From contig AJFK01000144.1 in the NCBI GenBank assembly GCA_000467715.1, forward strand, positions 1 to 64,000: a stretch of 64,000 nt of DNA, given 5' to 3'. The notes below the pieces were generated by a model, which saw only the letters and a list, made by a program, of their open reading frames with translations, was not told where the DNA came from and ran no database searches. The DNA comes from Hysterium pulicare CBS 123377. Its lineage: Eukaryota; Ascomycota; Dothideomycetes; Hysteriales; Hysteriaceae. Numbering within the stretch: the first letter of the stretch is position 1; each line of letters opens with the position of its first letter. The position numbers and the translations under genes are program-made. This document shows, piece by piece, positions 19,775 to 42,393 of this stretch.

Positions 19775-20092
19775 CCTTCACCTTTATCTATCATTTAATT
19801 TTTCAATTTCTCGTCAACAGCGCACTGTTGTCCCGGTGGTCTCTTGAATCGAGCATTGAATCGGGCAGTGAATCGGGCATTGAATCGAGCATTGAATCGG
19901 GCATTGAATCGAGCATTGAATCGAGCATTGAATTGGACATTGAATTGGAGCAGAGAGATGACCACCGGTGATAAAATCCCCCAAAGGATTTTCATAGGAG
20001 ACTGCGGTCTCTGAACTTTTTGCTTGTCGAGGGTTCGAATAACTAGAGGAATCGGTTTTTATTTTTGTATTTTCGGTTAATAGAAGTGAAGG
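19775..20092 (+). repeat. Structured hairpin element, copy 1
   Basis: Begins CCTTCACCTTTAT and ends TTAATAGAAGTGAAGG, an approximate inverted pair. Inside, in order: hairpin CAACAG-CGCA-CTGTTG (19815-19830); stem CCGGTGG pairing with CCACCGG (about 19832 and 19961), closed over nine copies of a 12-base unit like TTGAATCGAGCA (19844-19952); hairpin AAAATCC/GGATTTT; the invariant TTTTCATAGGAG (19989-20000); hairpin GAGAC-TGCG-GTCTC (19998-20011); GGGTTCGAATAAC (20031-20043), similar to a Pol III B box; and T-runs near 20055-20070. The 12-base repeats keep a frame open, but this is not a gene. Three more copies lie at 41.2-42.4 kb. Confidence 0.75.
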
Positions 20093-20233
20093 GGAGTTAC
20101 CTCTGTAGTTGTCGATTAGTCAGATAGGGGCATGCAGTTGTCTTACGCGATAGTTTCACTAGAAGAATCATCTGGTGAGGTTTAGACATGAGATGTTCTG
20201 GAACATACTTTTGAACCTGTTCTCCACCATTCA

Positions 20234-22854
20234 TTATACCTCCAACACTACTTTTCCATCCCTATCCACAAACCTGACTCCCCTCGCCTCACTCTTTGCC
20301 CCCGTAACCAAACCACGCTCATCCCACCCGAAATCCACCGACCCACCTCCTCTAACTCTCAATCCCTTAACCCTCCCGCCACCCCACGCCTCCGGAATCG
20401 CTGGACCCAAAACCACCGTCCTCTTCCTATCGCCTTCCATCCCCGGCTCTTCAATATCTACAGCAAGCATAGCTAACACCGCGCCCCCAAAACCGAAATT
20501 GGCATCGATCTGAAACGGCATGTTCTTCCCACTATACATACTCGCGGCATTCCCGACAAAATTCTGCTCAATCGCATACCGGAGCTCGAAATACGCTCTC
20601 TCGGTATCATTTAATCGCGCCCAGCAAGCCGCACGCCAGACTTTCTCCCAGCCGGCGTTCGCGTCCGGGCCGTTGCCTATGCCACGTGAGTAGAGCGAGG
20701 TGCGGATGGCGGATTGGATTGTTGAGTTTGTGAAGCCGGAGAGGTAGGGTGGGGAGGGGGAGATGAGGGAGAGACCTGGGTACCAGCCCCAGAGGAGGGA
20801 GAGGTGGCGATGGGTGTCGTTTTGTATATCGTAGGAGGCCTCATCGATGGGGGAGGGAAATTTCCATTCTTTTATTCCGCCCCAGGATGTGAAGTGGAGG
20901 CCTTTGTCAAGGCTTGAGAGAATGCTGGAGATGTTTGAGAGGAAATGGGTGTCGGAGTCTGAGGCTAAGGGTCCTAGAATTTCTGTAGTAGCGAGGAGTT
21001 GATGAATCAGTTGTTGGAAATGCGTGCAGGCGAAGGTGGTAGGACCGTGTTCCGGGCTGTTGCAGGGATTGACGACGAGAGTGTTGTCTTTGTTGAAGTC
21101 GTCCCATTGGAGCTGGGAGAGCCAGAATTGGGCGACGCCTTTGAGGAGCGGGTAGCCTGTTTCACGCAGCCAGGTAGTATTTTGGGAGTAGGAGAAATGG
21201 TCTGTTACATGTTGCATCATCCAAGCGGCCGATACAGGATCTAGGGCATGTCAGTGTGACTGGGTATGATGCAGACGAATGGAAGAGAAACCACAAACAG
21301 TCAGCCCATTGTGCATCATTCTTCATTCCCGTATGTCCAAAAATGTTCATTTCGCTATGCGTCACCCACCCTTCTTGAGCACCGTACAAAAGTTTTGCTG
21401 TCTCCGTGCCGCGAGGAGCCCATGTGTCTTGCATATAACGCCACAGGCCCGTCTGGAGGCTTCCAAGCCCCGTTTGATCCGCCACCCAGTAGTTCATTTG
21501 CAGATTGATATTAGCATGATAATCGGCACTCCAAGCTGCGGTCAAGTCAGGACTCCAGCGACCTTGAAGATTAGCTGGCAACGAGTTTTCCCTTGATGAC
21601 GAGATCAAGAGATGGCGTGAGTAATCGAATAAGAGGGACTCGACGTAAGGATCTCCTGAACCGCTTGAACTATAATTCTCGATTAACATCGCCGTTTCGA
21701 TGCCGGAGGAATTGCGGGAATCCGGGAGCTCAAGTGCGAACGCGCCGGAAAGGTTCTGATAGTCTTCCATGTGCGTCTGAAGCAGTGCATTCGCAGTTTT
21801 AGATGCAGCCGAATTTGCGGCTTGCTCTACAGATGCAGACGGATCGACGCCTCGAAAAGAATAATTAGCCGCTGCATTGCCCTTGGTTTGATCGTAATTC
21901 GTCCCGGCTGCTACGACGAATCCGACCGAACGCATGTTGGAGGGTGATTTTACAATCAGAGTCTCGGGGTCTGTATCACTACAGTAGCTAGAGTTGGTCA
22001 TAGATCCAATGGTTCGAGCAATTGAGTCATATATCATGCCTTCCGGAGGTCCTACCTGTGTGATGCCTCGAAGACGGGTATAGCCATTTCCACAGCTCGA
22101 ATTCGCAAGCGTGAAATTGACCAGTCGGTTCTCCAGTCGTACTGAAATGTCTGGGAGCGCGGCAGTCGAGGTCATTTGATACACGCATACGCTGTCTGGG
22201 TAAGAGCAGAAGACTCTCGTCGAGTATTGATTACCATCTTGGCCGGTGTAACTCGTAGTATGGACACCGGTAGTGAGATCAAGCGCTCTTTTGTACGTTC
22301 CTGCTTGCGCTGTAACGTTGAAGAATACAGACAAATTTCCCAGCACTTGATAACTTCCGTAGTCATCGGGATTGCCGTACAACTCGGTTACATCTTGGCA
22401 CATCAGTTAGGTCGTTAGATCGTTGGCGACGAGGATTTTAACGTACTTCCAGTACCATTTTGAAAGATCCATTCGCGGATGCCTGGAAGGAAGTGGTACT
22501 TCTCTTCAATTGGATTTCCACCGGTGTAATTCTATCAAACTTGTCAGGATGCATAGAGTGAGATGATGGTTGAACTGATTACGCTGGCTCCAAAGGGACC
22601 TCCCCACCATAAAGAATCAACGTTTAAAATGACCTTTTCAGCACCTGCTCGGCCGAATGGTGTTGCTACCGATTGTCAATTAGCAAGATAGCGGCTGAGT
22701 ATCGAAATTTACCTCCTAGCCTCCCATTCCCTAGCAGATATGCCTCTCTGATCACGTTAGAGTAGTTCGTTGCAGGCGAAGAGGACCATAATGATTTGGC
22801 ATCAATAGGGAGCAGCGTTATTGCCACAGCTATAAAAGGAAATGCGCATATCAT
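20234..22854 (-). CDS. GH95 alpha-L-fucosidase, secreted, 803 aa, five exons
   Basis: Exons 22854-22713, 22665-22583, 22531-22447, 22393-21299 and 21240-20234, with introns of 47-58 bases; every junction keeps frame. The N-terminus [19 protein letters not shown] is a signal peptide. An in-frame ATG 17 codons upstream is possible but would spoil it. The conserved blocks are present: [34 protein letters not shown] near residue 400 with the two catalytic-site asparagines, SPEHG near 532 with the general-acid Glu, and FQIDANFGF near 714 with the second acidic residue. Family GH95 removes 1,2-linked L-fucose (or galactose) from xyloglucan and related plant polymers. Many N-glycosylation sites agree with secretion. 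Confidence 0.92.
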
Positions 22855-23605
22855 TATAATCTGATTTGCCACGACACATTGAGAAAAAGAATGAGTGGAC
22901 AGCATGGAGATTCAGTTTCATAATAAATGTACAAGACCGGAATAGCAGTCGGCCAACACTCCCCAGATCTAAACTGGGCCATGATGGGGTCGTGTAGAGA
23001 CTAAATTTGCGGAGAAATTGGATACGGAAACAATCAGCAGGTACCACGGGGTATATACCGCCGGGCCCTTTATGCTAGTTCAGGGTAAGTTTTGCGGAGA
23101 TTCAGAAGTTGGGGTTGTTTACACGGATAATCTTTGTAACCTCGTTTAAGATGTATCCTCAAGGAACATCTTTGCGAAGTGTATCTGTCATATACAAAAG
23201 AAGTAATAAAAATTCCCGAACTTAGGGTTTGAGGTTGAAAGCTCCAAGGGTGTCAAATGCTCTACTTTCCCCAGTCTGCGTGTATATTGGCTTTGCGTAC
23301 GGACGCGAAGTACCCGTTCGCCTTTCACCTATTCAAGAGATATCTCTGAAAAGGGACTGAGATCTCAGTGTCATTGAAAACCATCCATCTGTTACCGATA
23401 TTGGAAATCAATAGCCAAATATTCTTTGATATTCGTAACACAGCCACCATCGTGACGTAACACGGAACTACGGACGCCCACCTGTACCAACATATTCTTC
23501 ATAAGCACGGTGCATGCCTAACGCACTTATCAACACTCAACCGCAACAGCTCTCGACCATCATGATGCTCACTAAAACCCTGTCGCTACCGGTGTTGTTT
23601 GCAAC
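22855..23605. promoter_or_regulatory. Divergent spacer between the GH95 and esterase genes
   Basis: About 750 bases serving as upstream region for both genes. The part at 22960-23200 has an AT-leaning core. No clear element recognised. Confidence 0.4.
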
Positions 23606-25069
23606 ATGCCCTACTTTCAGGCCCTAAGTTCCTTCTTCCGCCTGCCTTTCCATGTCCAATGGCGCACATTTCTAGTCCAGCTACCTCGCTACGTCCCACT
23701 ATCAATTCTACACATTACCTCGCCGAAGGGACCGCATCCTTTCATTATCGCCCTGCCATCGAGAGCGAATCATAAAATCCCCATCTACGTTTTTATTCCG
23801 CCAGATCCGGTTCGCGTTGACGATAATGGCGAAGCTTCACGATCATCGGGACAACAAGAGGAGGACGGGGTGTGGGAAGTCCCAGTGCTTCTGGACTTTC
23901 ATGGTGGAGGATTTATTATGGGCTCACCCCTTGAACAAGCTCCCTACTGCGCGATGATGAGCCGTGAGCTCGGTGCCGTCTGTATCAGCGTCTCCTACCG
24001 CATTGGTCCTTTCCACCAATTCCCAGCCGCTATCCACGATGCCGAGGATGTGCTCGCGGCCGTCCAAGATACAGAGGGGGTGACGGAAGGCGGGAAAGTG
24101 CTACGACAAGAGATACAGAAGCAGTATACTATGATCAGGCGGACACTGCAAAATAAGCACAGCAGATCCACCACCGCGCCACCGACGCAACATCTCCCAC
24201 CGAACAAACATACCATAAGACTCGACCCAACACACCTCACCATCTCCGGCTTCTCGGCTGGCGGCAACATAGCCCTGAACCTAGCTACCTCAGTCCCCGC
24301 TGTCGCCGATACTCCACCTTCACCAGATGAGATTACATCTCCGCTCCTATACGCACCTCCAAACAGGAGACAAACCATTCTCGACGACCCAACCTGCGAA
24401 TGGCCCTCCCTGCTCCCAACCCCAAACGCCGTACCTCGCCAAATCCCTCTCCTGCTCTTCTACCCCTCTCTCGACGCACGTCTTCTCCCGCACGAGAGAC
24501 CTCCGAAGGTAATCCCCGGCACGACGATGCAGATATCGAACCCACGACGGCCCGGTTTGTTCAGTATAATGGGCCCGACATACCTACCGAAGAAATTGAG
24601 AGGCCATCCGAGAGCCAGTCCGGGGTTGAGTGATCCTAGGAGGGATATTAGAAGAAACGTATCGATCCTACTAGTACTCCCAGAACAGGACAGCCTAGCC
24701 GTCCAAAGCGAAGTCTGGCTCGACAAGATGCGCGAAGGAGGATGGGAAGGGCCTACACGATACGGCGACGGCCGAGAAGGCGATTGGGACGGCCGACGAG
24801 CATCGAGAGAGGCCAGAGGCGAGATGGAGATGGGACGCAGGAGTCAGAGTGAGAGACTAGGTGCGAATGGTGAGAATGGCGGGTTGGAGGTTTGGCATGC
24901 GCCTGGGATGAAGCATGGTTGGACTCAGTTCCCCAATACCTGGCTTAGGAAACCGGAGAGGAGGGAGCGCGATTTGGTATTTGAACGTGCATTGGATTTT
25001 GTCAAGGAGGCTTGGAGGAGGCCGCCGCCGCTTTTGGCTGGGTTGGTTGGCATGGAAGGTCGGTTTTGA
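23606..25069 (+). CDS. Alpha/beta-hydrolase-3 (HSL-type) esterase/lipase, 487 aa
   Basis: Single exon. FHGGGFIMGSP (residues 98-108) is the oxyanion-hole motif of the hormone-sensitive-lipase family. GFSAGG (215-220) carries the nucleophile Ser. KHGWTQFP near the C-terminus holds the catalytic His, and the DSL of LPEQDSL before it supplies the acid. A charged, poorly conserved insert between the nucleophile and the acid and another before the His make the protein longer than usual family members (310-350 aa). No signal peptide is obvious; a hydrophobic N-terminal segment (residues 20-36) may bind membranes. Likely hydrolyses short-chain esters; substrate unknown. Confidence 0.85.
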   Translation: MPYFQALSSFFRLPFHVQWRTFLVQLPRYVPLSILHITSPKGPHPFIIALPSRANHKIPIYVFIPPDPVRVDDNGEASRSSGQQEEDGVWEVPVLLDFHGGGFIMGSPLEQAPYCAMMSRELGAVCISVSYRIGPFHQFPAAIHDAEDVLAAVQDTEGVTEGGKVLRQEIQKQYTMIRRTLQNKHSRSTTAPPTQHLPPNKHTIRLDPTHLTISGFSAGGNIALNLATSVPAVADTPPSPDEITSPLLYAPPNRRQTILDDPTCEWPSLLPTPNAVPRQIPLLLFYPSLDARLLPHERPPKVIPGTTMQISNPRRPGLFSIMGPTYLPKKLRGHPRASPGLSDPRRDIRRNVSILLVLPEQDSLAVQSEVWLDKMREGGWEGPTRYGDGREGDWDGRRASREARGEMEMGRRSQSERLGANGENGGLEVWHAPGMKHGWTQFPNTWLRKPERRERDLVFERALDFVKEAWRRPPPLLAGLVGMEGRF

Positions 25070-28000
25070 GGGATGCTTACTTAGACATGTTTAGCGGGTC
25101 GATTTTTCCGGGGGCATCTTTGGGAAAAGTTGGAACGATTTATGAGAACAACGTGATTCAGAATCTGAAATAAGATCTATTCGCCATAGTAATCTAGGAA
25201 GGCCAATCCACCTTTGAATGGTGCGAAGGCAACTGTGGTGTGATGGACGCCTCTCCGTCGCTAAATTTTCTCTACTAGGGAAGTACTTTGCCCCCGTTTC
25301 TGAAACATTGGTGTTCCAATACAGATATGTGGTACCGATCGCTTGAAGCAATCCATGGATCTATCCAGGCTATAATGCGATCTAGAACTCCCTGAACCTC
25401 ACAAAGAATTTTTTTAGAGGAGGGGTGTGACAAAGCGATCCAGTATTTGGTGCCTGGGAAATATATGATGATACAGTATTGTATTTCACGACGCTTGAAC
25501 TTTAGCTGAGCTCCGGTATTTCACATTCGGTCTACAATATCCGTAATAACCATCCTTAGAAACGGGCATGGTGTTTAATTTATTGCCGAGCTCGTGCAGA
25601 CGTGGTTGGAACAACGCGGATTAATGGTGTTGTGCGCATTGGATGTTGTTATATTAGGAGAAAATACAGTGCAGAGTCCAAGATTTGCTATGTCGATTCT
25701 CTTGTGTACAATATATACCTAATCTAGTACAAATAACGCGGACATGTTAGAGACATGCGAATACTCTCATGATAGTTTGCGTGGGCCGATACGTCCGCAT
25801 ACAGACTCTACGTAACAGCGACTCCTGGCACTGCCACTGTTCTTCCAGCAACCTCCAAATACATTGGAACAAGAGAGACATAGTCAAGTGTGAACGCGTT
25901 TGAAAAAGGGGCGGTATTCTGCTTTGAGACAGTGAAAGCAGACGCAAGAGAACTCGTAACTCACAATCTTTTGCCGCATGGTCTTGGCTTCTTGCTTTTC
26001 CACGTGTAGAGTCTTGTACATGAAGAGGAATTCTAGGCATCTTGGCTGCGCAACATTGCCAATGCTGAACCCCTTCTCATCTCATCTTGGCTCGAAAGCA
26101 CAGCATCGATATCGATCGGCCACTCCGGAACTGCTGCCGAGAAATCTTGATCAGATCCACTTCGACCCGGAGTGATCCCCCCTAGGGGTGTTTGACGTTG
26201 GACAAGAAACGGCGATGCAGATGATTAGATCGCAGATAGTCTTGGCTGTGTGACTGGAGATCCAACGTCGTATGATGAATGCTACGGTGGGTGGTTCCGA
26301 TTGTCAGCGCTACGGAATCCGAAGCCTGACCAATTTAATGGTTTGAAGTCGTGTGAATAAGGTAAAATCGTCAGCTCAGCCCTATAAGACATGGGACTGT
26401 GACAGGTCTCGGAGTCCGAATTAGTGGTGTGAAACCTTGGAATCAAGACTTGGACGCAAGGAAAGACGGGAATGCACATGTTTGTGATGATGATTAACCT
26501 CATATGGCGATGATAGAGGTGTATGAGGTGAATGCCTGGATCCAAAATGCATGTGACAGATAACGGACCCTGATTTCCCGTTTTCGCGATGCGAAGGAAC
26601 CTGCTGATTCAACAGCGCTAGCTGGTGGAAAGTGTTCCAAAGTTAGAGCCACGTCGGACCCGGATGTGGACCGAGCCGTCGTTGCACGTTGCAACGCTGT
26701 CAAGATCCTGTTTCAAGGTGGCTGATTGTCCAGCGAAACTTCAGACGTCATGCCGCTAGGATTACCAAGAAACATCGTGACGAATAGCGGCAGTTCTTAA
26801 CCGGTATTGTAATGAACGACTAGTGAGGATACTAGGCCTCATTCTCACTGCACTATTTCCGGCGCTGCTTCGGTCTGCCAGTTCATCTCGGTTGATGGGA
26901 GCTACCTAGCTTGCTACGGTGCAGAATAGACACAGGAGCCTAGCGACGACAGCAAATTAGATAGAAGGAAACCTACTCACGAGTTATGTTCCACCAAGGA
27001 GCCAAAGCAAATGAAAACATAAGACTCGTAACAAGCCTCGAACCAGATGGAGGGGTCTGCGGGCATACCCGGATACTTCCCCGCACTATGGAACTTGTGA
27101 TGATGATTTGCCGGCAAGAGCGCCTCTGGAGAAGTAAAAAGGAAATGCTCGGACAGAAGCTGGACTAAAAGCTGGAGACAGCTGTCAAATCCTTGTTAGT
27201 CGCCGCATGGTGTCTGAGCGATTGTCTGAGTCGCGTAGAAGCGGGGAGATCGCACAGAACGAAACGGCCCTGGTTCTCGATTCTGGAAGCAATTCTGCAA
27301 CCCGACCTGCAGCGCTGGTGTGGAAATTGGCGCTTGAAGATGGCTGTCAGATGACTTCCTCCGACACAGGGGCTTTGGAGGGCGTCTAAACCTCAGAGGA
27401 CGTGAGAAGAGCGGTGAGAAGGGCTAATAAGTGAGGAGTGCAGTGTTTACGAAACGGCTTTGTTTAGACTGATATCACGCGCGAAAGAAAAGGGGGGAAC
27501 ATAGGTATTCATTGAAGGAAACAAATGTCGGGACCCTTCGAATTGGATGTTGGGAGAGCAAAATGGAGCACTAAAGCAACGCGAAAGCGTCTGCCGACTC
27601 ATGCATGCTGGCTGATGTGCATACAGCATGCGACATGAAGCTGAAGTCTTTGTGAGCGTCGGCCTACCATTCCGGGAGAGGGACGCTGCAGCTCTTCGGT
27701 TGAAGAATAACCTGTCGTTCTCATCGCTGACCCGACAATGCGGGTGGCATGCAGATGCTCTCGTATGCCTGCAGCGGCCGGAGGGAATCGGTTTGCCTTT
27801 TCACACCTGAAGGCCGCGCATGCCTCGGGTCTGGAGAGAGGTTGCGAGGATAATGGCGTGGTTTATCTTTCCATTTCGCAGCATGACGTGCAAGCACCGA
27901 AGCAGGACTGTGACCAAACCACAGATAACCGTGGCGTGTAAAGAAACACGCAGACGGGAGCTTGGCGTTGCTTACCACACGGCGGCAACAAAGAATACGG

Positions 28001-28986
28001 GAGCTCTTGAAGGAACTTGTGAAAGCGCGTTGAGGCAAAACAATGAGATAATCAGGGTCAGCGTCGCAGTCATGGTCAGGTGGCTGCTTTGAGGAGCAAA
28101 CTCTGCATCGCTCCCCTACAGAGCATTTTCTGTGCCCATCACCCAAAACGCCCACACCTCGCCAGCGCTTCTCATGGCCAGAAATCCCAGCTACCTATAT
28201 TTCGTCGAGTAACAGTATCCGTTACATTGGACCGGCCTTGCCCAGCTGGGCTCTTGCGGTGTGCACTTAATTACCCACTAGTCACGGAGTACCAGCCGAA
28301 GCTCGCACCCACCACCCACCAAACCCACCCAGCGCTCCCCCGAAATCTCTTCTTCACCACACTCCTCGCTCGACATTTTGTCGTGCCGCGTTCCTTCGCG
28401 CACGAAGAAAAGGACAGTTTGATCGTGGGCTCCATCCTCACTGTCGCATTACACATCATCCATTCCATTTCCTTCAGGAGTACTTCCGACTTCGCTTCGT
28501 ACGAGGTTACTAAGGCGTACCGCCAATCTTCCTCTCGCCACCATCGCAGATCCTAACATCAACTCCCGCAAGGTATCCTTCCAACTCGAACACCTGGTCA
28601 AGGACCTACCAATCTGACTACCTCTTCAAGTCCGACTTCCTAAAATCCGTTTCTGAAACGTCTTCACAAACCTTCAACATGTTTGCTTCGATATTATAAC
28701 ATTTCAGTCCTTAGGGACACCATTTGGAGACACCACATTCAGTCTACCGAACTCAATACCTCCCTCCGAACATCCTCAGCAAGCTCCTTCCACAGGGTGA
28801 CACAATTGGTATCGTTCGCGTACAGCCAAGACAAAATAACGCGAATCGCTGTCCGAAATCAACCCACTCCCGACATTTTCATCTCAGTACATACGATACG
28901 ATTCATTCCTCAGGCTAGCATACGTGCCACAGTGAATTAGCAGTTCATTGCTAAGAGCGATTCTACCGGCTATACCAATCATCGAA
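25070..28986. other. Gene-poor region, 3.9 kb
   Basis: Ordinary composition and no long coding frame. A small spliced frame on the minus strand (25808-26021) is the only lead. The stretch 28080-28980 is C/T/A-rich and is probably promoter and long 5' leader of the DUF2457 gene, which would explain the many short overlapping frames. Confidence 0.45.
25808..26021 (-). CDS. Tentative small spliced frame, 55 aa
   Basis: Exons 26021-25965 and 25918-25808 are separated by a 46-base candidate intron that starts GTGAGT and ends AAGCAG. The product starts MYKTLHVEKQEAKTM and ends with a mixed hydrophobic segment. The frame also runs upstream of the ATG without a stop for about 20 codons, so this could be the end of a larger, decayed or missed gene. 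No family recognised; shown only because the donor site is perfect and both exons look protein-like. Confidence 0.2.
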
Positions 28987-33062: not shown

Positions 33063-34651
33063 ATGTTAGTCAGGCGCCGTTGTATCAAAATTGAGCTCAC
33101 TTCTTTTCTCATTGCTATTTTCGCAACCGTCTTCTTTGCTGTTTGCACAATTCTCTATGGAACCAGAACCGAAAGTCCAGAGATTCCCTCGTTGGTGAAA
33201 CAGTTCCTCCCGGCCGGACGGTGTTTGTGTCAATACAGTACTACTTTTACATGTGACAGCTGTCTCGACTGCGCAGCGAATCAGTTCTCTTCGAATACTT
33301 CAGCAGCATCCGATGATGAGCAATGGACTTTCAACTACACCCGGGATGGCATGAACGAAGGTCTAGATCAGCAGCAGTGCGATGCCTCTTTCCCAGGTCT
33401 TTTTGAGGACATTGGGCGAGCGGTGAAAGTTCGGTGGAGTAATCATGTCACGGAGGAAGAAGTCTCTTCTTTTGAGCTCTCGAAAGGTATGGTGAGGGCC
33501 ATGGTCTTCGACGGACAGGTACAGTCACCCCTGCGTCAATGATACCGTTCGGAGTCAACGAGCAAGGCCCAGCTAACCAGCCTTCCTCGCAACAGCTTTA
33601 CGTCATTCAGACCTTCCTTGTAGATCAAAACAATCGCAAAAAAGCTACCGCCGCACTCTACTCTATCCACCGCGCCATTACGTCCATCTCTTCCCGCAGC
33701 TCCATCCCAAACATCGAATTCATCTTCAGCGTCGAAGACCTCCCTCAACGCCCCGAGAAGCCACTCTGGGTCCTCACCCGCCGCGCCCAAGACGAGAATC
33801 TATGGCTCATACCCGATTTCGGCTTTTGGAGCTGGGACGTGCGAGAAATCGGTCCGTTCTCCGAAGTTGCGGAGGAAGTCACGCAGCGAGAGGCTCAAGA
33901 GCCTTTTGCTATAAAGAAGAAACAGCTAGTTTGGAGAGGCAAGATATCGTTTGCGCCGAAGTTGAGAAGGGCCTTGATCGATGCGACGAAGGGCAAGCCG
34001 TGGAGCGCTGTTCAGTCTTTTCACTGGGGAGACCCGGAAGAGTTTAAAGAGCAGTTTTTAGGTCCCGTCGATCAGTGCATGTATATGTTTATTGCGCATG
34101 CTGAAGGTGCGTCACAACGCAAATTTACCTATTCATAGCTTGAATCCAACAGCAATCAGGACGCAGTTACTCCGGAGCCCTCAAATACCGCCAACTCTGC
34201 CGCTCGGTAGTCGTATCTCACAAACTCCAATGGATCCAGCATCACCACTACCTACTCAAAGCCAGTGGAGCGAATCAAAACTACGTCGAAGTAGAACGGG
34301 ACTTCTCGGACCTTGAGGCGACGATGGAACATCTCCTTGCGCATCCCGAAGAAGCGAAACGTATCGCCGATAACAATGTGAAGACGTTCCGAGAGCGCTA
34401 CCTCACACCAGCGGCCGAAGGCTGTTACTGGCGCGCACTGTTCAATGGATGGAAGCAAGTGAGTTTCGAGCCGAACTTATATGAAGAGGTTAAGGGGTCG
34501 AAGCGGCTTGAGAGGTCGAAGAAGAGGGGGATGAGGTTTGAGACTTTTGCGTAAGTGGTATATGACAGATTCATACTTGGAAGACATGACTAATTTGAAG
34601 AACAGGCTTCTAGAAACAAAGTACCAGATGGAATTTGTAGCGAACAAGTGA
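33063..34651 (+). CDS. GT90/CAP10-type glycosyltransferase, 467 aa, four exons
   Basis: Exons 33063-33518, 33596-34106, 34160-34550 and 34606-34651, with introns of 77, 53 and 55 bases. The N-terminus has a short cytosolic RRRC segment and a single anchor (IELTSFLIAIFATVFFAV), giving type II Golgi topology. A Cys-rich stretch (CLCQ...CDSCLDC) follows. The catalytic part has LVWRGKISFAPKLRR, DQCMYMFIAHAEGRSYSG, YRQLCRSVVVSHKLQW and a C-terminal helix, as in CAP10/KDELC proteins that move xylose or glucose onto glycans. The last intron begins GTAAGT exactly where an unspliced reading would stop, and has a GACTAAT branch site. Splicing adds a 15-residue tail, so a model ending at 34554 is probably incomplete. 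Confidence 0.87.
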
Positions 34652-36607
34652 ACAAATGGTGTTGAGGATGATAACGAAACTAGATACCCCCTTTTTGCAG
34701 ACATTCGAAGTTATGTGGTAGCGATTGTATATAATCCTAGAATTATACATACTACAGCTTTTCTTTGACCAAATGCTTAGTTTCGTCAAGGAGACCAACA
34801 TCATCAAATGTCAACAGTGAAGCCCATCTCTACCCCACACTCCCATCATAGGGCTCATCATACGCCGTCAATCATGCACATATCCCTCTACCCTGGTTTC
34901 TTTCCTCTCTCGAGACTCTGCTCCCCGCATCCCCTCCACACCATTCATGGGTCCCCAATTGCTGATGTGATTACTTGGCCACCACTCCCGCACGACGGCC
35001 ATGCGTGCCATCCCTTTTTCACATTGGCTTCCTGACTCTGAATGTCGGATTCATCGGTGCGGTGGAAGCAAGACTGAGCGTTCTGAAGGCTTTTTATATC
35101 TAGAGAAGCGCAGAGGGGGTGGGGGAATCATATCAGCAAATTCTCATCAGAGGTCACGAGAATGGGATTCTTGAAGGGGTGCGGCTTCAAGCGGTCAGCC
35201 GGCCCTGGCGGTATATGAATACTTTTTTATTTATCAGCAAGAAGTCGTTATTCTCTTTGATCCGCTTCCCATGTGATCTAGATCTTACTTCCGACTTATC
35301 CTTAGTCTATCTAGCACTTCTTTACCTTTTCTATACCGCCATTTCCCCTCTCTCTGGGCTGGAATTTCATCTAGCAGCACTATCCAAGAAGCCATGTGTC
35401 TGAGAGTTCTGTCTGATAGTGCTCGCGATGCGCATCTACCCGTCTTCCTAGCGTTTCAAAAATACGAGGAAGAACGCGTCTTGTGTCTGCCTTGCCATCG
35501 TCAAGGATGGGGCGAAGCTTGCGAAGCTTGCGAAGCTACCCTACGGCCCTACACTTCGATACGAGTTCGTTAGTTACTGTGGAGTAGTGCGGTGCGGTTT
35601 TGGAGTGATGAGACTCGGTATAGCCCTCTCTCGTGATTGGGGATCATATGCTCGTGCTCGGATGCTGGTTTAGAAAGGTTGGTGGTTGAGCCTCGTCACC
35701 CTGTGCTCTTATCGACGCGTAAGTTCATGTGCTCGTGGTTAGTGTTGCAGAGCTCCATCAGTGCGTAGGATGGAGTGAGGAGCCTCACGAGCATGCTGTA
35801 GGGAGCCAGTGGAGGAGGCGGAAGGGAGTCAATTGATCTCTAACACGTTTTCGTGCTTTCGGCGTAATGGCAGAGTAGAATGGCCCTGTATGTAAAATCT
35901 TACAACATGGAAGTTATTACCACTACTATTATCTAGAAATAGGTATGATCGTCTCTTTAAAATGGGTTCTAGTATTCTAATGCTCACCACCACCGACACG
36001 CGCGAGTATAGGATTTTTGGAGTCAGCGAGGCTTGGCTGGGGCCCATTGTTTCAGTGTCGTGTTTTAATGGAGAAGGAAGATTTGCCTTGCTACGATGTC
36101 TTTTACGCATGGATTGCGCTCAATTCGCATATCCCGTTCGCTGGTAGACTTGCGTGCGTTGTTACACTGATCATTCGGTCGATGCAGCCCTTTGTGCAAG
36201 ACGGAGGTTACTTGGTTATGCAGTATTCAAAGGAGCAGAGTCCGATAGTTCTTATAGGCATTTGGGCCACTGTTGCCTTTCTGAAAAGTGTTAAGAGAGC
36301 ATGATAACGGATAGTTGAATTCGGTCGTGGTTGAGTCGAGCCGTGGGTGAGGACGGAATCTGGATGTCAGTTCAGGCCAAACAAAGTTGTAGAGTTCCAC
36401 GGTTCGTTTTGTAGACTTTCATGGTTCACTTTATTGAGGTCCATAAATTGCAGCTGACGTGGATGAGCCGTGTTTAAATGAAAAAAAGAATAGCACGATG
36501 GACATTTCAAAGCATTTCACGATCCACGAAAAGTGCACGGAAGTCGAGCAGTGAGTCTTTGTTCGCGGTCGAGAGCAGGTATCGCTAAATTCAATAATAC
36601 TTTTAAG
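34652..36607. other. Intergenic, 2 kb
   Basis: Several short overlapping frames, none convincing. A small perfect triplication of GCGAAGCTT lies at about 35512-35536. No other feature seen. Confidence 0.45.
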
Positions 36608-37465
36608 TTAAGACTCAAGCTCGAGTCGCATGCAATGCTGAGAAGTATTCTCTGCGGCACAAGCAGTCATCGTGTTGATAGTAGGCCTGCCGCTTGATGT
36701 TTGAGTGCAGCAGTCGGACCTCAATACTTTTTCATCCCCGGAGAGTCTGATGTGACCGGTGTCGGATGCAGGAAAGTATCTCCGGCGTACACTGAGATAC
36801 GCAATTAGTCAAGTAGTCAAGGGAATGAGGGGACAGATATGTGAGACTTACCATAACCACGTCATGTCAATGGCCTCGTATAGAACGACGATGAAAATCA
36901 ACCAGAGCACGACCTGCAATACAAAGATGTCGCATCCCTTTCCATGCCCGTGCTCATGCCCGTCCCCATATAGACTCCAGCCTTCCTTTTCCCTCGCATT
37001 CGATAATTCGGAGAACGGAGAGGAAGGATGATCCCTTAAACTGCACACAATCCTACTCTTTTCCTCAAACCAATCCTCCCCCGAATGAGCAGCAGTAGTG
37101 GGCGGTTGGTCGTAGCTCTGACCGGAGGATATCGCTAATAGAACACTCGTGGGCAATGGGTAGGCTCCATCCAGGACTTTCGAAGCAGCGATCCTACTTT
37201 CGAAATGCAGGGGAATGCCGTGGTCGTCGGCAAACTGATGAGCCGTCCGCCAGTCTAGCCATTTGGTGCTGAGTGATGAACAGGGACTGACTAGATCGTC
37301 TAAAGCTGATATAGAGATTGCTGGAGTAGGCGTGCTTGTTGGTGGTTGGGCAGCTAGTGATTCGCACCGGCAATGCAGATTCGGCTCATGATACACAGGG
37401 ACGCTTCGCGCCGGGACGAAGAAGAAGAGAGAGGCAAGTGAGATGACCAGAGCGATTGACGACAT
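36608..37465 (-). CDS. One-pass membrane protein with signal peptide, 265 aa, two exons
   Basis: Exons 37465-36852 and 36791-36608 with a 60-base intron (GTAAGT ... TTGACTAAT ... TCTCAG). MSSIALVISLASLFFFVPARS is a signal peptide. The outer part has few cysteines (HCRCES) and a Thr/Pro-rich segment. A His/Gly stretch (DGHEHGHGKGC) precedes a transmembrane helix (FVLQVVLWLIFIVVLYEAI). The second exon supplies a cytosolic tail beginning RRRYF and containing IRLSGDEKVLR, a pattern often seen in tails of fungal plasma-membrane proteins. Without splicing, translation would end at once in the donor site, so a single-exon model would be cut short. Function unknown. Confidence 0.68.
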
Positions 37466-39306
37466 GATGACTTAATTGGAGATTTGGATATGTTGTTGGG
37501 TGTTGGAATTATTTTAGAAGGTTGAGGCTGGTATAGCGATCTAAAGCCTTTGTTTAGTGGAGGGCTGTTTGCAGTAACATGAGGAACAAAGAGTGTTTCA
37601 CGAAGACAATGGAAATGGTCGTGACAGTTAACGGCATAAAAGAGAGTGAGAAAAGTGGTATGACAATTGAACGTGGAGAAATTGCTTACTGTGGCAGCTA
37701 ATATGGCGAGTGCTGTGGTAGCAGGGCGCAGTCAGATTCCTTCTGAACGGCCGGCTTCCCAATCTAGACTTAAGGCACAGGCAGCAGCCTCTTCCTCTGA
37801 TGCCAATAATGGATTTTAGCACGATTTAATGGCCCAGTGAGGTTAGGAAATGTAGCATTTCCTCGGCCTCAACCTTTGGAGCGCCCTTTTCTTCTGCGGA
37901 GAACCGCGATACTCTTTCACGGGTGACAGCCGGGCTGGAAGAAGGCCCTTTCGGTCCTTTTTGATTTGGTCGTCTTAGGCGCCCGGATCGCGAAGGAACC
38001 GCATGGACCTCTCCGAGACCCTGGATGAGTAGTATGCGCGAGGTTGCACACGAGAGACTGTGTGGTGCTGCCTAGTGGCCGATGAAAAAGCTTGAATCAA
38101 TGAAAGATGAAGATGCCCGGGATGGACTGTCGATGCTCGATGGCGAAACTTGGAAAGCAGTCAAAGCGAACATGGAGACTCGGCAACGTTTTGTATCAGC
38201 TGGATGTGCCCCGGTGCGACTCTTAGTTTGATTGAAGAGGGGGCGGAGTGCACAAGGAGCTGCTGTGCTCACCAGCTTTAATTTGGGTGCGTTGGTTTTG
38301 ACGTTGGCGTGGTCAGGAAACGAATTCAGCCAATTTCAAAGAGCCAAGCCGAGCCAAGCATTCAAGAGATCCAGACCCACCTGGCTGGTAAAACCATCCC
38401 CTTCAGCGATTCCCCTTCAAATAATGAAAAGGAACGGCGCACAACCTTGTACGTAATAATGGACGAATCGTGGCCTGCGCATATGACAGCTCTACTTTAG
38501 CGTACAAATATTATGCCTCGCCGATCGTTTGGCAATACGGGGTCGTGCCCTAAAAATGACGATATTTCGTGGATGGCTGACGAGAGTCTAGATCTCTGGA
38601 GGCTTGAAGAGCTGTATCAAAATGCGGTTACACACAATCAAACAGTATCATGTCGCGCAACGCAGAATTGCACGCCAATGAGTTCGCGAGGGGTGTCAGC
38701 TTGAATCACCTCATCGCGAGGAGCTGTATGGTCAATGCAGAAGCATGACAAACCGTATATGGAGATGGCTACGAGCGTCGGCTGGGCTGAACCTCCCAGT
38801 AATGCCAGCGATGCACTGGAGCACATAGCCTTAGAGATGGAAAGACGACACGAAGGCCCCAAAGCCAAGCACGAAATGCCTCAGATCACCCTAGGTCTCG
38901 GGCTTCGCATTTCAGCTCCTACATCATCGGGTTTCAACAAAGTATTCCCCCCTCCACTGCAGGTCCACGCCGTCCTCGCTCCAGTGGATGGCAATTCCAT
39001 TCGGCCGTCTCATTCGCATTGTCTTACGCAACTCTCCCCAGAATGTCAATCATGCAGACTCTCCAACATGAATGAAACTCCCTGCATGTTTCAATGCTAA
39101 GCTTTTGTGCTAAGCTTTACTGATTTGCAACTAACGCCAGATCGGGTGTAATTTCCATCTAGTATAAAGCTTGGCCGAATCGCTATTGCTTCACTGCAGA
39201 GCTGGTCCTTCTTGTACAATTTTACATTCTTTCTTTGTGCCGGTCACATAATTCTGTTCCTATTCCACGTTCGTTATATACTTTTCAAGCGTAGACTCAG
39301 TTCACC
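37466..39306. other. Intergenic, 1.8 kb
   Basis: Between two divergently transcribed genes. Open frames at 38513-38704 and 38735-39100 are unsupported. A TATA-like TAGTATAAAGCTTGG at about 39160 and a T/C-rich leader precede the lysine-rich gene. Confidence 0.45.
39160..39174 (+). promoter_or_regulatory. TATA-like box of the lysine-rich gene
   Basis: TAGTATAAAGCTTGG sits about 140 bases ahead of the ATG at 39307, followed by a pyrimidine-rich leader. This resembles promoters of strongly expressed fungal secreted proteins. Position-based inference. Confidence 0.4.
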
Positions 39307-40188
39307 ATGAAGTTCATCCAGCCTCTTGCGCTCGCCTTTCTCGTCGGCCTAGTTGCCGCATCTCCTATCCCTGATCAGGATGGAGGTATGATAAAATACC
39401 TTTCGGACATTCTCTTATTTCATCACTGACTAGTTTCAGCTCTGGTATCCCGAGATGGTGCTCTCGCCGACGCCCGAAACGCTCCCCTCGACTCTATCAT
39501 CGAGGAACGATCCCCTGTCCCCGAACCCAAGAAGAAGAAGGGAAAAGGAAAGGGCAAGGGCAAAGGAAAAGCAAAGGCTAAGGCCAATGCTCGTGATATC
39601 GAGACCGTAGAGAGCAAGTTCCTCGAACGTGATGCGGAGCCAATGGCTCTTGAGGATGCCCTTGAGGAGAGAGGTAAGTGTTATATGTCTTGTATTCTTT
39701 TTTGAATTGGTGATTGACTAGTCAATAGACCCTTCTCCCAAGAAGAAAGGCAAAGGAAAGGCAAAAGGCAAGAAGGGAAAAGGCAAGGCCAAAGCCAAGG
39801 CCGCCGGTGCCGCTCGCGATGCTGAGCCACAGAGTGAGCTCGTTGAGCGTGAGGCCGAAGCCGAAGCCGAAGCCGAGCCTTTGAGCGACCTTGACATTGA
39901 AGAACGATGTAAGTCTTCATATTACTCGCTGTAATCACCCTCCTAACATTCATCTCAGCCCCCAAGAAGAAAGGAAAAGGAAAAGGCAAGGGTAAGGCCA
40001 AGGGTAAAGGCAAGGCCAAGGCCGCTGGTGCCGCCCGTGATGCTGAGCCTGAGAGTGAGCTCGTCGAGCGTGAAGCTGAAGCCGAACCCTTGAGCGACAT
40101 TGATATTGAAGAACGCTCTCCCAAAAAGAAGGGAAAGGGAAAAGGCAAGGGTAAAGGCAAAGGGAAGGCGAAAGGCAAGGCCAACTAA
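39307..40188 (+). CDS. Secreted lysine-rich repeat protein, 240 aa, four exons
   Basis: Exons 39307-39385, 39440-39673, 39729-39908 and 39959-40188. MKFIQPLALAFLVGLVAAS is a signal peptide. The mature part repeats a two-sided module three times plus a final half: a strongly basic run of Lys-Gly/Lys-Ala pairs after SPKKK, then an acidic run such as ARDAEPESELVEREAEAEP ending in EER. Introns 2 and 3 both fall right at the EER/SP module border, in the same phase, so one exon equals one module and the array probably grew by exon duplication. The ...REAEAEAEP spacing recalls dipeptidyl-aminopeptidase spacers of fungal peptide precursors, but the dibasic KR site is missing. Role unknown: a surface-binding, antimicrobial or processed-peptide protein are all possible. 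Confidence 0.8.
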
Positions 40189-41221
40189 GCAACAAGCAAA
40201 TGATCGGCGACCTAGATCACGAGTCCCAGGCCAGCCCCCCAACCCTCCTCTTGCGCTCCCTTTTGTATCTTTGAAATCAATGTAACCTTGCTTCCCATGT
40301 CCGCGTTCTTGTATATTCGTAGTCACGGTCGATAGAGACGAAGAACATAAAATAGACGGCGTTGAGGAGTTTGCATACAACCGTGCAGAATATACCTAGT
40401 AACATGTCAATCGGTAGTTACTAAGATCAAAGTGGTCCTAGTTGGCGCCAAGAGACCTTGTGAACATGCTGTTCACTGTCGACGTCCTGAAACCGTCCCT
40501 CAAGGACGAAACCGTTTCGCATAACCTCCACACCTGCATGACTAACTCCTTCGGCTCGACCTACCGCTTGGGGTTGGTCAGACCACGATCCTCAGTAAAC
40601 TACCTAAAAGGGAAACTTCTGAAGAAAAGCGTTGAATCCTCCGAACCATTCGATCAACGACGGGCCGATTCGGTCTCGAAATGATGAAATGGTCTCAGAG
40701 GTCATAATGCACTTTTATCGAGACTCCGATGTCTCGAATGCCTTGATATGCAGTCGTTGGGGTTCGTTTGAGGACCGCAATCACTCGCTGGAGCATAAGT
40801 TCGTCACGGTCTAAGGAGCAGTCTTTCCAGCTGTCAGGCAACAGGTTACACTAATTCTCAGACAGTAATTTCCGTAAGAATGTATCGGTATATGACGTGG
40901 GTCATAACGTGGACGACGTTGGCCATGCACGACATGGATGACTATGGAAGAATGTGAGCCATGGCATGGAGGGAGGATCATAGGCCATCATGAAGAATCA
41001 TGGGCCACGACATGGACGAGGAGGGATTGGTTACAGGTGCGAAGAGTGAGACAAAGGGAGTGGTGTTTGTGAATAGGAATGGTAAGATAGTGTTGGAGGT
41101 GTATGGTAGAGAAGAGAGTCTAAGGGATGCTTCTGAACATTTCTAATAAGTTAACCTTATAATACCCAATTCTTCTAGTGGAAACCAACTCGTGTAAATG
41201 CATGTGCACGGAGGTCAATCG
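40189..41221. other. Intergenic with an ATGG-rich patch
   Basis: 3' region of the lysine-rich gene, a short unsupported frame (40442-40684), then a patch of ATGG-rich repeat sequence and a stretch leading into the first of three structured elements. Confidence 0.45.
40890..41040. repeat. ATGGAC/ATGGGCC-rich patch
   Basis: Degenerate words such as TATGACGTGGGTCATAACG, CACGACATGGATGAC and ATCATGGGCCACGACATGG, like those at 5085-5180 and 14190-14235. Confidence 0.45.
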
Positions 41222-41542
41222 CTTTCACTTCTATTAGCCCAAAAAGCAAAATTAAAAGATTCAATACCTGGTCCTTAGCTATTCGAATCTTCGAAGAGTA
41301 AAAAATTCAGAGGCCGCAGCCTCCTATGAAAACTCAAGGGTTTATCACCAGCGTCTCTCGGACTGGCTTACTAGTTTGTTGATTGATGTGTTGGTGTCTG
41401 GTGACTGGTGACTGGTTACTGGTTACTGGTTACTGGTTGACTGTTGTTGACTGGGTTGAGAGAGACCACCGGGCCAACAGTGCGCTGTTGACGGGGAAAT
41501 GGAAATTTAAATGAAACATATAACTCAAAACAGAATTGAAAG
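41222..41542 (-). repeat. Structured hairpin element, copy 2
   Basis: Minus strand relative to copy 1. Genomic left end CTTTCACTTCTATTAGCCC, right end AATTGAAAGG. Hairpin CAACAG/CTGTTG at 41475-41490. The central stem (CCGGTGG side, with GAGAGA/TCTCTC flanks) is capped by a tandem 7-base repeat like CTGGTTA in place of the 12-base repeat of copy 1. The invariant core is present. The 3' hairpin is GAGGC-TGCG-GCCTC, where copies 1 and 3 have GAGAC...GTCTC, a paired change. The right flank contains a TATAAATA sequence near 41575. Confidence 0.72.
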
Positions 41543-41734
41543 GATGCAACGTACCCAGTTAATGCGCTCAACAGTATAAATAGATCTTCACTGTGAAAGG
41601 GGGTGTTCTTACCACTTTCAACCGACAAGCAGAATTGGCGTCACTAACTAGCTAGCTAGCTAGCTTCCTTAATCTTCCACTACTCACAGTTTAAAGACAA
41701 AAAGAAGAGATAGATGGGTTTAATTGACAGCTAT

Positions 41735-42044
41735 CTTGAATTCGCGTTAACAAGCTAGGCAAAACAAATAAAGACTACTGCAGTTATTCGAACCCAAGAG
41801 TTGCAAAAAGTTCGGAGACCGCAGTCTCCTATGAAAACCCCTCGGGGGATTTTATCACCGATGGCCTCTCTCGAATCTTTGGGTTCTTTGGTGTCTCTTG
41901 GTGTTCTTGGTGTTCTTGGTGTTCTTTGGGTTCTTTGGTGTTCTTTGGTGTTCTTTGGGTTTTGAGAGAAACCATCGAGCCAACAGTGCGCTGTTGACGA
42001 CAAGCCTAAAAAGTAAAGTGATTTTTAAAGGTGAGAGCTGAAAG
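41735..42044 (-). repeat. Structured hairpin element, copy 3
   Basis: Hairpin CAACAG/CTGTTG at 41981-41996. The central stem CGATGG/CCATCG replaces CGGTGG/CCACCG of copy 1, another paired change, with TCTCTC/GAGAGA next to it. The tip is a tandem repeat built on TTCTTTGGTG and TTCTTGGTG (41877-41962). The third hairpin has AAAA and CCCC facing GGGG and TTTT. B-box-like GGGTTCGAATAAC (minus strand) is identical to copy 1. The left limit is approximate because the inverted end is weak here. Confidence 0.72.
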
Positions 42045-42116
42045 AAAACAAAGCCATTCAGCGCGGTATGTGAATCGCATGATCTGATGGGAAGGAGCGC
42101 TCTTTCCTCTTTCGCA

Positions 42117-42393
42117 CCATCACTATACCCGAGGCTATTAGCAAATCATGCCTCACAAAAAGGCAAAAAGAATAGAATCATGAAAGAATCGAACACTTGA
42201 ACCTACATCTCGAATGGCAAAAGTTCAGAGACCCCAGCCTCCTATGAAAATACCCAGGTGTGGGAGTATCTTATCATCCGGGACTAGCGTCGTTGAACCG
42301 ACGTTTCGACTGTCCATTCCTCAGTCGCCCGGGCCAGTAGTGGGCTACTGACAACATGAGCAACGAATAAAATATTATATATAGGTGAAATAT
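42117..42393 (-). repeat. Structured hairpin element, copy 4 (most diverged)
   Basis: Hairpin CAGTAG/CTACTG at 42335-42350 replaces CAACAG/CTGTTG with two changes on each side that restore pairing. The core TTTTCATAGGAG is intact. The third hairpin uses a different sequence (ATACTCCCA/TGGGTAT) but still pairs. The central tip has no tandem repeat; instead it holds an inverted GTCGTTGAACCGACG. The B-box-like region reads AGGTTCAAGTGTTCGATT. T-runs follow on the minus strand. Confidence 0.68.

Follow-up and report, generated by a model that had tools for sequence, protein, structure and literature searches.

In the 64-kb window, that is, the first 64,000 nucleotides of contig AJFK01000144.1 of Hysterium pulicare CBS 123377, four copies of an element with a common order of hairpins are present at the positions originally predicted, one on the forward and three on the reverse strand. 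Judged from its sequence, each copy reads as a standalone RNA gene with a U6-type layout, the parts of which are as follows (copies on the reverse strand are named after the first position of their predicted RNA):

19783..19788, +: copy 1, TATA-like box TTTATC at -30
19813..20021, +: copy 1, predicted RNA of 209 nt, beginning with GTCAACAG and ending with the T5 run
19813..19832, +: copy 1, helix I (5' hairpin), loop CGCA at 19821-19824
19833..19968, +: copy 1, arm II, long loop with tandem array at 19844-19945 (12-bp unit, 8.5 copies)
19973..19992, +: copy 1, helix III, AAAATCC/GGATTTT
19993..20012, +: copy 1, CATAGGAG together with helix IV, whose loop TGCG (20003-20006) complements loop I
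20017..20021, +: copy 1, T5 run, predicted to terminate Pol III transcription
20031..20038, +: copy 1, B box GGGTTCGA
42378..42383, -: copy at 42352, TATA box TATATA at -31
42219..42352, -: copy at 42352, predicted RNA of 134 nt, T4 run
42341-42344 and 42233-42236, -: copy at 42352, loop I CCCA and loop IV TGGG
42196..42204, -: copy at 42352, B box AGGTTCAAG
42024..42029, -: copy at 41998, TATA-like box TTTAAA at -31
41805..41998, -: copy at 41998, predicted RNA of 194 nt, T5 run
41987-41990 and 41820-41823, -: copy at 41998, loop I CGCA and loop IV TGCG
41876-41958, -: copy at 41998, tandem array in the loop of arm II
41788..41795, -: copy at 41998, B box GGGTTCGA
41517..41522, -: copy at 41492, TATA-like box TATATG at -30
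41300..41492, -: copy at 41492, predicted RNA of 193 nt, T6 run
41481-41484 and 41315-41318, -: copy at 41492, loop I CGCA and loop IV TGCG
41392-41443, -: copy at 41492, tandem array in the loop of arm II
41283..41290, -: copy at 41492, B box AGATTCGA

Family size and genome search

Further copies in the genome had been named as support for the family and their absence as an outcome that would count against it; five of nine copies were located outside the window. In the 37.2 Mb genome the identical set of nine loci, spread over five contigs and with a core identity of 75-92%, was obtained with the 5'-hairpin and the 3'-core patterns, and a model built from seven copies recovers the remaining two with 66.0 and 54.4 bits (E 7.6e-18 and 2.7e-14). 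With at most one mismatch, TTTTCATAGGAG occurs at exactly four places of the window against 0.31 expected, at least four being reached in 0 of 100 shuffles. The proposal of an invariant stretch needs a correction, since among the nine copies only CATAGGAG is invariant; the copy on C404 reads GTTTCATAGGAG.

Three candidates were rejected: C497:42093 and C47:16779 have 3 mismatches, lack TATA and B box by eye and give no match to the model, while C255:108322, with 1 mismatch to hairpin I, lacks the core and reaches a top model score of 6.1 bits. The 42 matches of the 5'-hairpin scan with 3 mismatches were taken as chance, as a control with the backwards pattern also gave 42. The core pattern had 0 matches in viral contigs and 0 in prokaryote genomes.

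Predicted promoter layout and end of the RNA

A TATA-like box at -30 or -31 is present in all nine copies, against a background of 248 among 63,800 window positions, the box spellings having been taken from the copies themselves. The predicted RNAs measure 111-212 nt and end without exception in a run of 4-6 T, with a B box 9-15 nt past it (9/9), spelled exactly GGTTCGA in six copies and GATTCGA, GGTTCAA or GGCTCGA in the others. From about +17 a TGGCYCGGTGG-like stretch may represent an A box; it overlaps helices I and II and may therefore be kept for structure.

Two host U6 genes, L018 and L019 (82 and 79 bits to RF00026), carry TATATAA at -31, and their B boxes lie 6-8 nt past the T-run; yeast SNR6 is described as having an upstream TATA, an internal A box and a B box in the 3' trailer (PMC5356446). 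The family is like these genes in its TATA box, short RNA starting with a hairpin, T-run and B box, but unlike them in its fold and in the absence of U6 sequence, the RF00026 (U6) model giving no match in the window or at the loci of the nine copies. Because this layout is common to the host U6 genes and SNR6, RNA polymerase III is likely the transcriptase of the nine genes. When the succession of TATA, RNA, T-run and B box is used as a filter, more unexplained candidate Pol III genes appear in the same genome.

An unlikely variant of this reading would keep the family but take the first T-run as internal, the RNA running to the next T-run past the B box, so that the A and B boxes would both be internal, as in a gene of the tRNA type. 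The first run is only T4 in three of the nine copies, and these may read through to the next T-run, in which case the B box would lie inside the RNA; moreover, in all nine another run of at least 4 T follows no more than 60 nt past the B box, and the sequence surrounding the first T-run is conserved. However, L018 and L019 likewise present T-run, B box and second T-run, and U6 is known to end at the first T-run; downstream of that run in the nine genes, no helix common to all copies is seen by eye.

Predicted RNA fold and the proposed contact between loops I and IV

From its start, the RNA would fold into hairpin I at the 5' end, the large and highly variable arm II, the short hairpin III closed by A/U pairs, and hairpin IV at the 3' end, just ahead of a U tail. 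Arm II is the most variable part and its loop bears differing tandem repeats in four members. Covariation was assessed on an alignment of the nine copies, all paralogues from a single genome, with shuffled and slid alignments as controls. Over 30 named pairs, 262 of 268 cells pair (97.8%, vs 90.9% in shuffles; 0/500 reach this value), and sliding the partners by 1-3 columns lowers pairing to 32-52%. Nine pairs, in helices I, II and III and in the loop-loop contact, show two-sided changes, a count as high in 1 of 500 shuffles, while helix IV varies among A-U, G-U and G-C. The three compensating changes originally described are real, namely CAACAG/CTGTTG to CAGTAG/CTACTG in the copy at 42352 (-), GAGAC/GTCTC to GAGGC/GCCTC in that at 41492 (-) and CGGTGG/CCACCG to CGATGG/CCATCG in that at 41998 (-).

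The check with RNAalifold that had been suggested for the copies was run on the alignment without guidance and returns helices I, III and IV and three pairs of II. Folding energy z values (100 shuffles each) range from -1.6 to -3.7 in five copies and from -0.61 to +0.42 in four; the antisense strand folds better in two of the nine, and in two (those at 42352 and on C404) the lowest-energy fold partly departs from the shared structure. The original view, in which paired changes of this kind speak for a structure that acted as RNA or folded DNA, is supported. The RNA reading is strengthened by the U6-like promoter parts, since the fold is flanked by those of the two host U6 genes, and by the G-U pairs, since these pairs on the gene strand are A-C mismatches on the opposite one.

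Loops I and IV are complementary in all 36 cells, in the three combinations CGCA/UGCG, CCCA/UGGG and CCCU/AGGG. This pairing was inferred from seven copies, and the two copies seen later fit it, one of them with the new combination CCCU/AGGG; the hypothesis preceded sight of the loops of these last two copies, in which loop IV was seen before loop I. For loops I and IV, the numbers of two-sided pairs and of pair types, taken by themselves, were reached by 55 of 500 shuffles. The change between CGCA and CCCA tracks the split between long-arm and short-arm copies and may be one event, so that about two independent double changes underlie the case for the contact. Four-base loops that pair fully with each other may also be strained unless the closing pairs open. 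If formed, probably inside a single RNA and not across a pair of them, the contact would give the molecule the shape of a compact closed ring.

To the original prediction, these results add the TATA box, the terminator, the B box, the complementarity of the two loops and the five copies outside the window.

Relation to known RNAs and elements, and a possible role

It is rather improbable that the family is a strongly diverged snoRNA, 7SK, Y RNA, RNase P/MRP RNA or the intergenic structure 2 of Gao et al. (2021), although all these are structured RNAs and several are made by Pol III. Against Rfam 15, the window gave 0 matches at gathering score; with E up to 10, none fell on the nine copies and eight weak matches lay elsewhere in those loci, so that the family, unrecognised when first noticed, matches no Rfam family in any of its copies. 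The snoRNA boxes considered were the C box RTGATGA and the D box CTGA, and the H box ANANNA with ACA near the 3' end. CUGA occurs 10-11 nt ahead of the RNA end in seven of nine copies, as a D box might sit, but the C box is absent from all nine, which argues against a box C/D snoRNA; ANANNA words are found in all nine, as expected of so loose a word, and ACA is absent from the last 30 nt of every copy, which argues against box H/ACA. An Sm-site reading of AACUUUUUGC was dropped, as by eye no 3' hairpin is common to all copies.

7SK is a Pol III RNA in which 5' and 3' hairpins precede a U tail and the ends are brought together and closed by a helix. The family would be like it in the polymerase, the hairpins ahead of the U tail and the joined ends, but unlike it in a loop-loop contact in place of the helix and, in the comparison through Rfam, in the lack of a match; a fungal 7SK is not known. 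The family also invites comparison with structures 1-4 described by Gao, Jones and Rivas (2021), which were identified by covariation in fungal intergenic regions and are considered standalone, and from which it is set apart by their description: structures 1, 3 and 4 each consist of one hairpin with an H box, and structure 2, with a mean of 144 nt and found in Pezizomycotina, has 223 sequences from 207 genomes, close to one for each genome vs nine here, the main text containing neither "polymerase III" nor "kissing" (PMC8216456). Similarly, the 15 motifs reported for fungi by Li and Breaker (2017) are structured RNA candidates from comparative genomics, those described being ribozymes, UTR and intron elements, antisense RNAs, snoRNA-like RNAs and group I pieces; going by those descriptions, the anatomy of the family is not among them (PMC5640933). 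A further likeness, again by description, is to Saccharomyces cerevisiae RNA170, a Pol III transcript without assigned function (PMC5356446). The family was not found by text searches of open-access literature on Pol III noncoding RNAs in filamentous fungi, Dothideomycetes and Pezizomycotina, and a text search of the literature with the core letters yielded only unrelated papers, judged by title.

We regard as very improbable a low-copy SINE or MITE spread by transposition, the structure belonging to the element. The copies are dispersed over five contigs with cores 75-92% alike, and Pol III promoters are typical of SINEs. Nevertheless, both the TATA box, upstream, and the B box, downstream, fall outside the predicted transcript; a retroposed copy would lose both, yet both are kept in all nine. 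The copies are also few and diverged. Between the flanks (-100 to -32 on the 5' side, 25-125 nt past the T-run on the 3' side) the longest direct match measures 5-8 bases and does not exceed that in shuffles (maximum 9-11), and the longest inverted match measures 5-7 bases (compared without shuffles of its own). Target-site duplications are thus not apparent, and the external TATA and B boxes differ from the internal promoter of a SINE. Four flank similarities were noted. Two concern neighbouring copies within the three-gene cluster at 41.3-42.4 kb, and one is 30 nt upstream of the copies on C95 and at 41998; the fourth, between the copies at 19813 and 41492 (74% over 125 nt), adjoins the duplicated end of a GH95 gene and is a DNA duplication. 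That the copies are DNA-level elements, such as extra TFIIIC sites or insulators, in which the B boxes matter and the RNA is a by-product, is scarcely credible: B boxes accompany all nine copies and TFIIIC-only loci exist in yeast (PMC5356446), but the compensating changes in the helices and between the two loops are left unexplained.

We therefore consider it quite probable that these loci form a nine-member family of standalone noncoding RNA genes, each with its own U6-type Pol III promoter and a shared fold. RNA polymerase III would transcribe them from the TATA box at -30/-31, with an A-box-like stretch within the first 30 nt; the T-run would end the transcript, with the B box just downstream. 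La or Lsm proteins would hold the U tail, the closed core would be the common protein-binding part and arm II would show a member-specific loop to a partner. As a tentative proposal, the family could act in trans as interchangeable RNP scaffolds or decoys. More speculative, and in our view doubtful, is a lineage-specific Pol III RNA family forming a ring-like RNP closed by the kissing loops, its modular arm making the members interchangeable adapter RNAs with a different partner each; the fast-changing arm loops, repeat-bearing in four members, would then set the partner of each.

The list of Pol III RNAs beyond tRNA, 5S, U6, RNase P/MRP and SRP RNA is short, and few multi-copy structured Pol III RNAs without an assigned role are known. 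In the present family the promoter predicts the ends of the RNA, the helices outlast sequence change and the predicted loop contact held in two later copies, so that in a filamentous fungus it is clear what could be mapped, pulled down or deleted.

Copies of the family and their promoter geometry

The assembly of Hysterium pulicare CBS 123377 comprises 37.2 Mb in 596 contigs, the window being contig C117. The original prediction of four hairpin elements with compensating base changes was borne out, since the four copies (named here by the first base of the predicted RNA: 19813 on the forward strand; 41492, 41998 and 42352 on the reverse strand) and the three paired changes that it quoted are present in the sequence; within the window, the core word TTTTCATAGGAG occurs at these copies only. 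The same-strand cluster of three copies spans 1.1 kb. Three extra copies (C404, C252 and C126a, named after their contigs) were obtained with a DNA query and patterns, and the core pattern, when up to 3 mismatches were allowed, had 11 matches, namely the seven known copies, two full copies with 1 mismatch each (C95 and C126b) and two matches with 3 mismatches that were taken as chance. Using a second pattern, based on the 5' hairpin, the identical nine loci were identified with 0 or 1 mismatch; one extra 1-mismatch match was discarded as it lacked the core, and at 3 mismatches this pattern gave 42 matches vs 42 in the control. Scores of 66.0 and 54.4 bits were obtained for the two later copies with a covariance model of the 3' core trained on the first seven; the training copies themselves reached 71-96 bits, and among 16 searched sources the highest score elsewhere was 16 bits.

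Taking the G of GTCA[AG][CT]AG as +1, all nine copies display a TATA-like box (TATATA, TATATG, TTTAAA or TTTATC) at -30 or -31. Such a box is found at that distance at 248 of 63,800 window positions (0.39%, one strand), a rate that is a guide only because the box spellings came from the copies themselves. An A-box-like TGGCYCGGTGG begins at about +17; as it falls inside helices I and II, it may be conserved for structure instead. Behind the 3' hairpin come a T-run (T4 in three copies, T5 in five, T6 in one) and, 9 (five copies), 14 (one) or 15 bases (three) further on, a B box, which reads GGTTCGA in six copies and a one-letter variant in three. T-run and B box occur together at five places in the window, the four copies and one other, giving nine overlapping matches vs a mean of 1.2 and a maximum of 4 in 30 two-letter shuffles. 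The copies C404, C95 and 41998 have common words such as TACCGCAT/ATACCGC between about -140 and -40, which possibly represent a further promoter element; CACGTG lies upstream of the TATA box in some of these three, and 30 upstream nt of C95 and 41998 are alike at 83%.

The U6 genes of the same genome provide an internal control. A U6 family search evidenced at least five U6-like loci, two of which, L018 and L019, combine a TATATAA word at -31 with a GGTTCGAG box that lies 6-8 nt past the T-run. In L020, L021 and L022, a search of the 400 nt from the start gave no B box; the 3' third of L021 is unlike that of the other U6-like loci and has no T-run, and this locus may be a broken copy. Yeast SNR6 is described as having its TATA box upstream, its A box within the gene and its B box in the 3' trailer (PMC5356446). 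The family resembles L018/L019 and SNR6, as described there, in having an upstream TATA box and a B box behind the T-run, an analogy that suggests transcription by Pol III. The predicted gene type, a U6-like Pol III gene, is already known.

Conserved helices and loop complementarity

The predicted RNA, whose exact ends are inferred, contains helix I (8 bp), the variable arm II, an A/U-closed helix III and helix IV (5-6 bp). When the nine sequences were aligned without the middle of arm II (30 pairs, 268 cells), standard pairing was observed in 262 of 268 cells and two-sided changes in nine pairs (19 cells): two in helix I, two in the loop contact, two in II, three in III and none in IV. Among 500 shuffles, none matched the percentage paired, one matched the nine two-sided pairs and seven the number of pair types, while a slid-partner control was 32-52% paired. 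In helix IV, one pair runs A-U, G-U, G-C, which accounts for the A-U vs G-C difference between copies contained in the original prediction. Unprompted, RNAalifold recovered helices I, III and IV and three pairs of II from the nine-copy alignment. When only the 3' core of seven copies was tested, the two-sided pairs stood out less from shuffles, 52 of 500 matching their number. Plain folding energy is weaker support for structure, with z values of -1.6 to -3.7 in five copies and near zero in four; in seven of the nine, folding is more favorable for the sense than for the antisense strand.

In the first seven copies, the words of loops I and IV are perfect complements of exactly loop length, CGCA with UGCG in four and CCCA with UGGG in three. 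This complementarity was proposed before the loops of the last two copies were seen, and these carry CCCA/UGGG and CCCU/AGGG, the latter being a new matched combination. Over nine copies, 36 of 36 loop cells are paired, a value reached by none of 500 shuffles. Variation is confined to two of the four pairs and is two-sided in each; the numbers of such pairs and of pair types, taken by themselves, were equalled in 55 of 500 shuffles. Given the relatedness of the copies, the evidence corresponds to roughly two independent double changes. In C95, loop IV would be wider, its closing pair being an A-G mismatch. The predicted contact would lie within one RNA molecule, though it may instead join two.

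Arm II is long in 19813, 41998, 41492 and C404, with tandem repeats in its loop (units of 12, about 9-10, 7 and 9 bp, respectively); the predicted RNAs of the other five copies are short (111-139 nt). The repeats may have accumulated neutrally in an unconstrained loop, or may serve as a display surface. A CTAG tetranucleotide repeat (5.5 copies) is located at 41644-41665.

Genomic setting and other RNA genes

A mobile element was rejected, as all nine loci retain the promoter parts that lie beyond the predicted transcript; neither direct repeats beyond shuffle level nor an inverted match longer than 7 bases was found in the flanking stretches tested. DNA duplication accounts for one likeness: over 125 nt, the 3' flanks of copies 19813 and 41492 are 74% alike, next to a 30-residue match with the terminal part of a GH95 gene (20234-22403). 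The matching segment, 41012-41101 (+), adjoins copy 41492 and shares 73% identity with the 30 C-terminal residues of that gene; a partial segment was duplicated along with the RNA gene.

The gene neighborhood is unlike from locus to locus. The window copies neighbor the GH95 gene and an F-box protein; elsewhere, among 10 ORFs taken from 29 listed, six encode RCC1-like, DUF4211, MFS, adaptin, CAP59 and A4 peptidase proteins and four have no family. Domains in ten window ORFs include GH95, GH88, DUF2457 and SPA. The DUF2457 protein is closest to Cenococcum, Glonium and Zopfia (68%; among the best 120 of 942 matches), and a fast-changing protein has its sole match in Delitschia (39%); all of these are Dothideomycetes.

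Other RNA genes and candidates met in the genome searches (assembly G000) were:

C41:53497-53702, initiator tRNA-Met gene 1 (L023, L058)
C323 from 32812, initiator tRNA-Met gene 2 (L059)
C300, + strand, second T-run at 171233, candidate Pol III gene (L029)
C50, - strand, T-run at 72230, locus with TATA-like box, T-run and B box (L025)

Both initiator genes contain, besides an anticodon-loop intron, GT...AG introns at two matching places with branch-site-like words (e.g., GTAAGT...CAG, GTGAGT...TACTAAT...CAG), and compensating stem changes distinguish them. After in-silico splicing, ARAGORN classed both as tRNA-Met(cat); it called the first tRNA-Tyr when the anticodon-loop intron was retained, and detected no tRNA in the unspliced sequence. 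Among the matches checked, there was no uninterrupted initiator gene: the D-arm pattern had 12 matches when up to 3 mismatches were allowed, the two genes plus ten with 3 mismatches (control, 6), the T-arm pattern the first gene only, and the 72-nt spliced query none, also missing the two known genes. The sequences suggest an initiator tRNA that would require the spliceosome, for which literature text searches found no published report.

In L029, TATATAA stands 31 nt before AGGAAAG, with the first T-run 107 nt on and a GGTTCGA box behind; AGGAAAG/CTTTCCT close its ends, and it is a further candidate Pol III gene. L025, with more than 200 nt from TATA-like box to T-run, is perhaps, as a guess, RNase MRP or P RNA. 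Neither matched Rfam at E up to 1.

Relation to known RNA families

Rfam gave no family match for the nine copies, and C box and 3' ACA are absent from all of them; CTGA occurs near the 3' end in seven. Fungal structured RNAs have been catalogued by Li and Breaker 2017 (PMC5640933) and Gao et al. 2021 (PMC8216456). In the passages of both reports that describe them, compared by description only, none is given the anatomy of this family; intergenic structure 2 of the latter may still be related. The present analysis establishes the copies, their promoter geometry, the helices and the loop complementarity. The RNA gene family is real and apparently undescribed, and its predicted RNA would have a putative function as an RNP scaffold.
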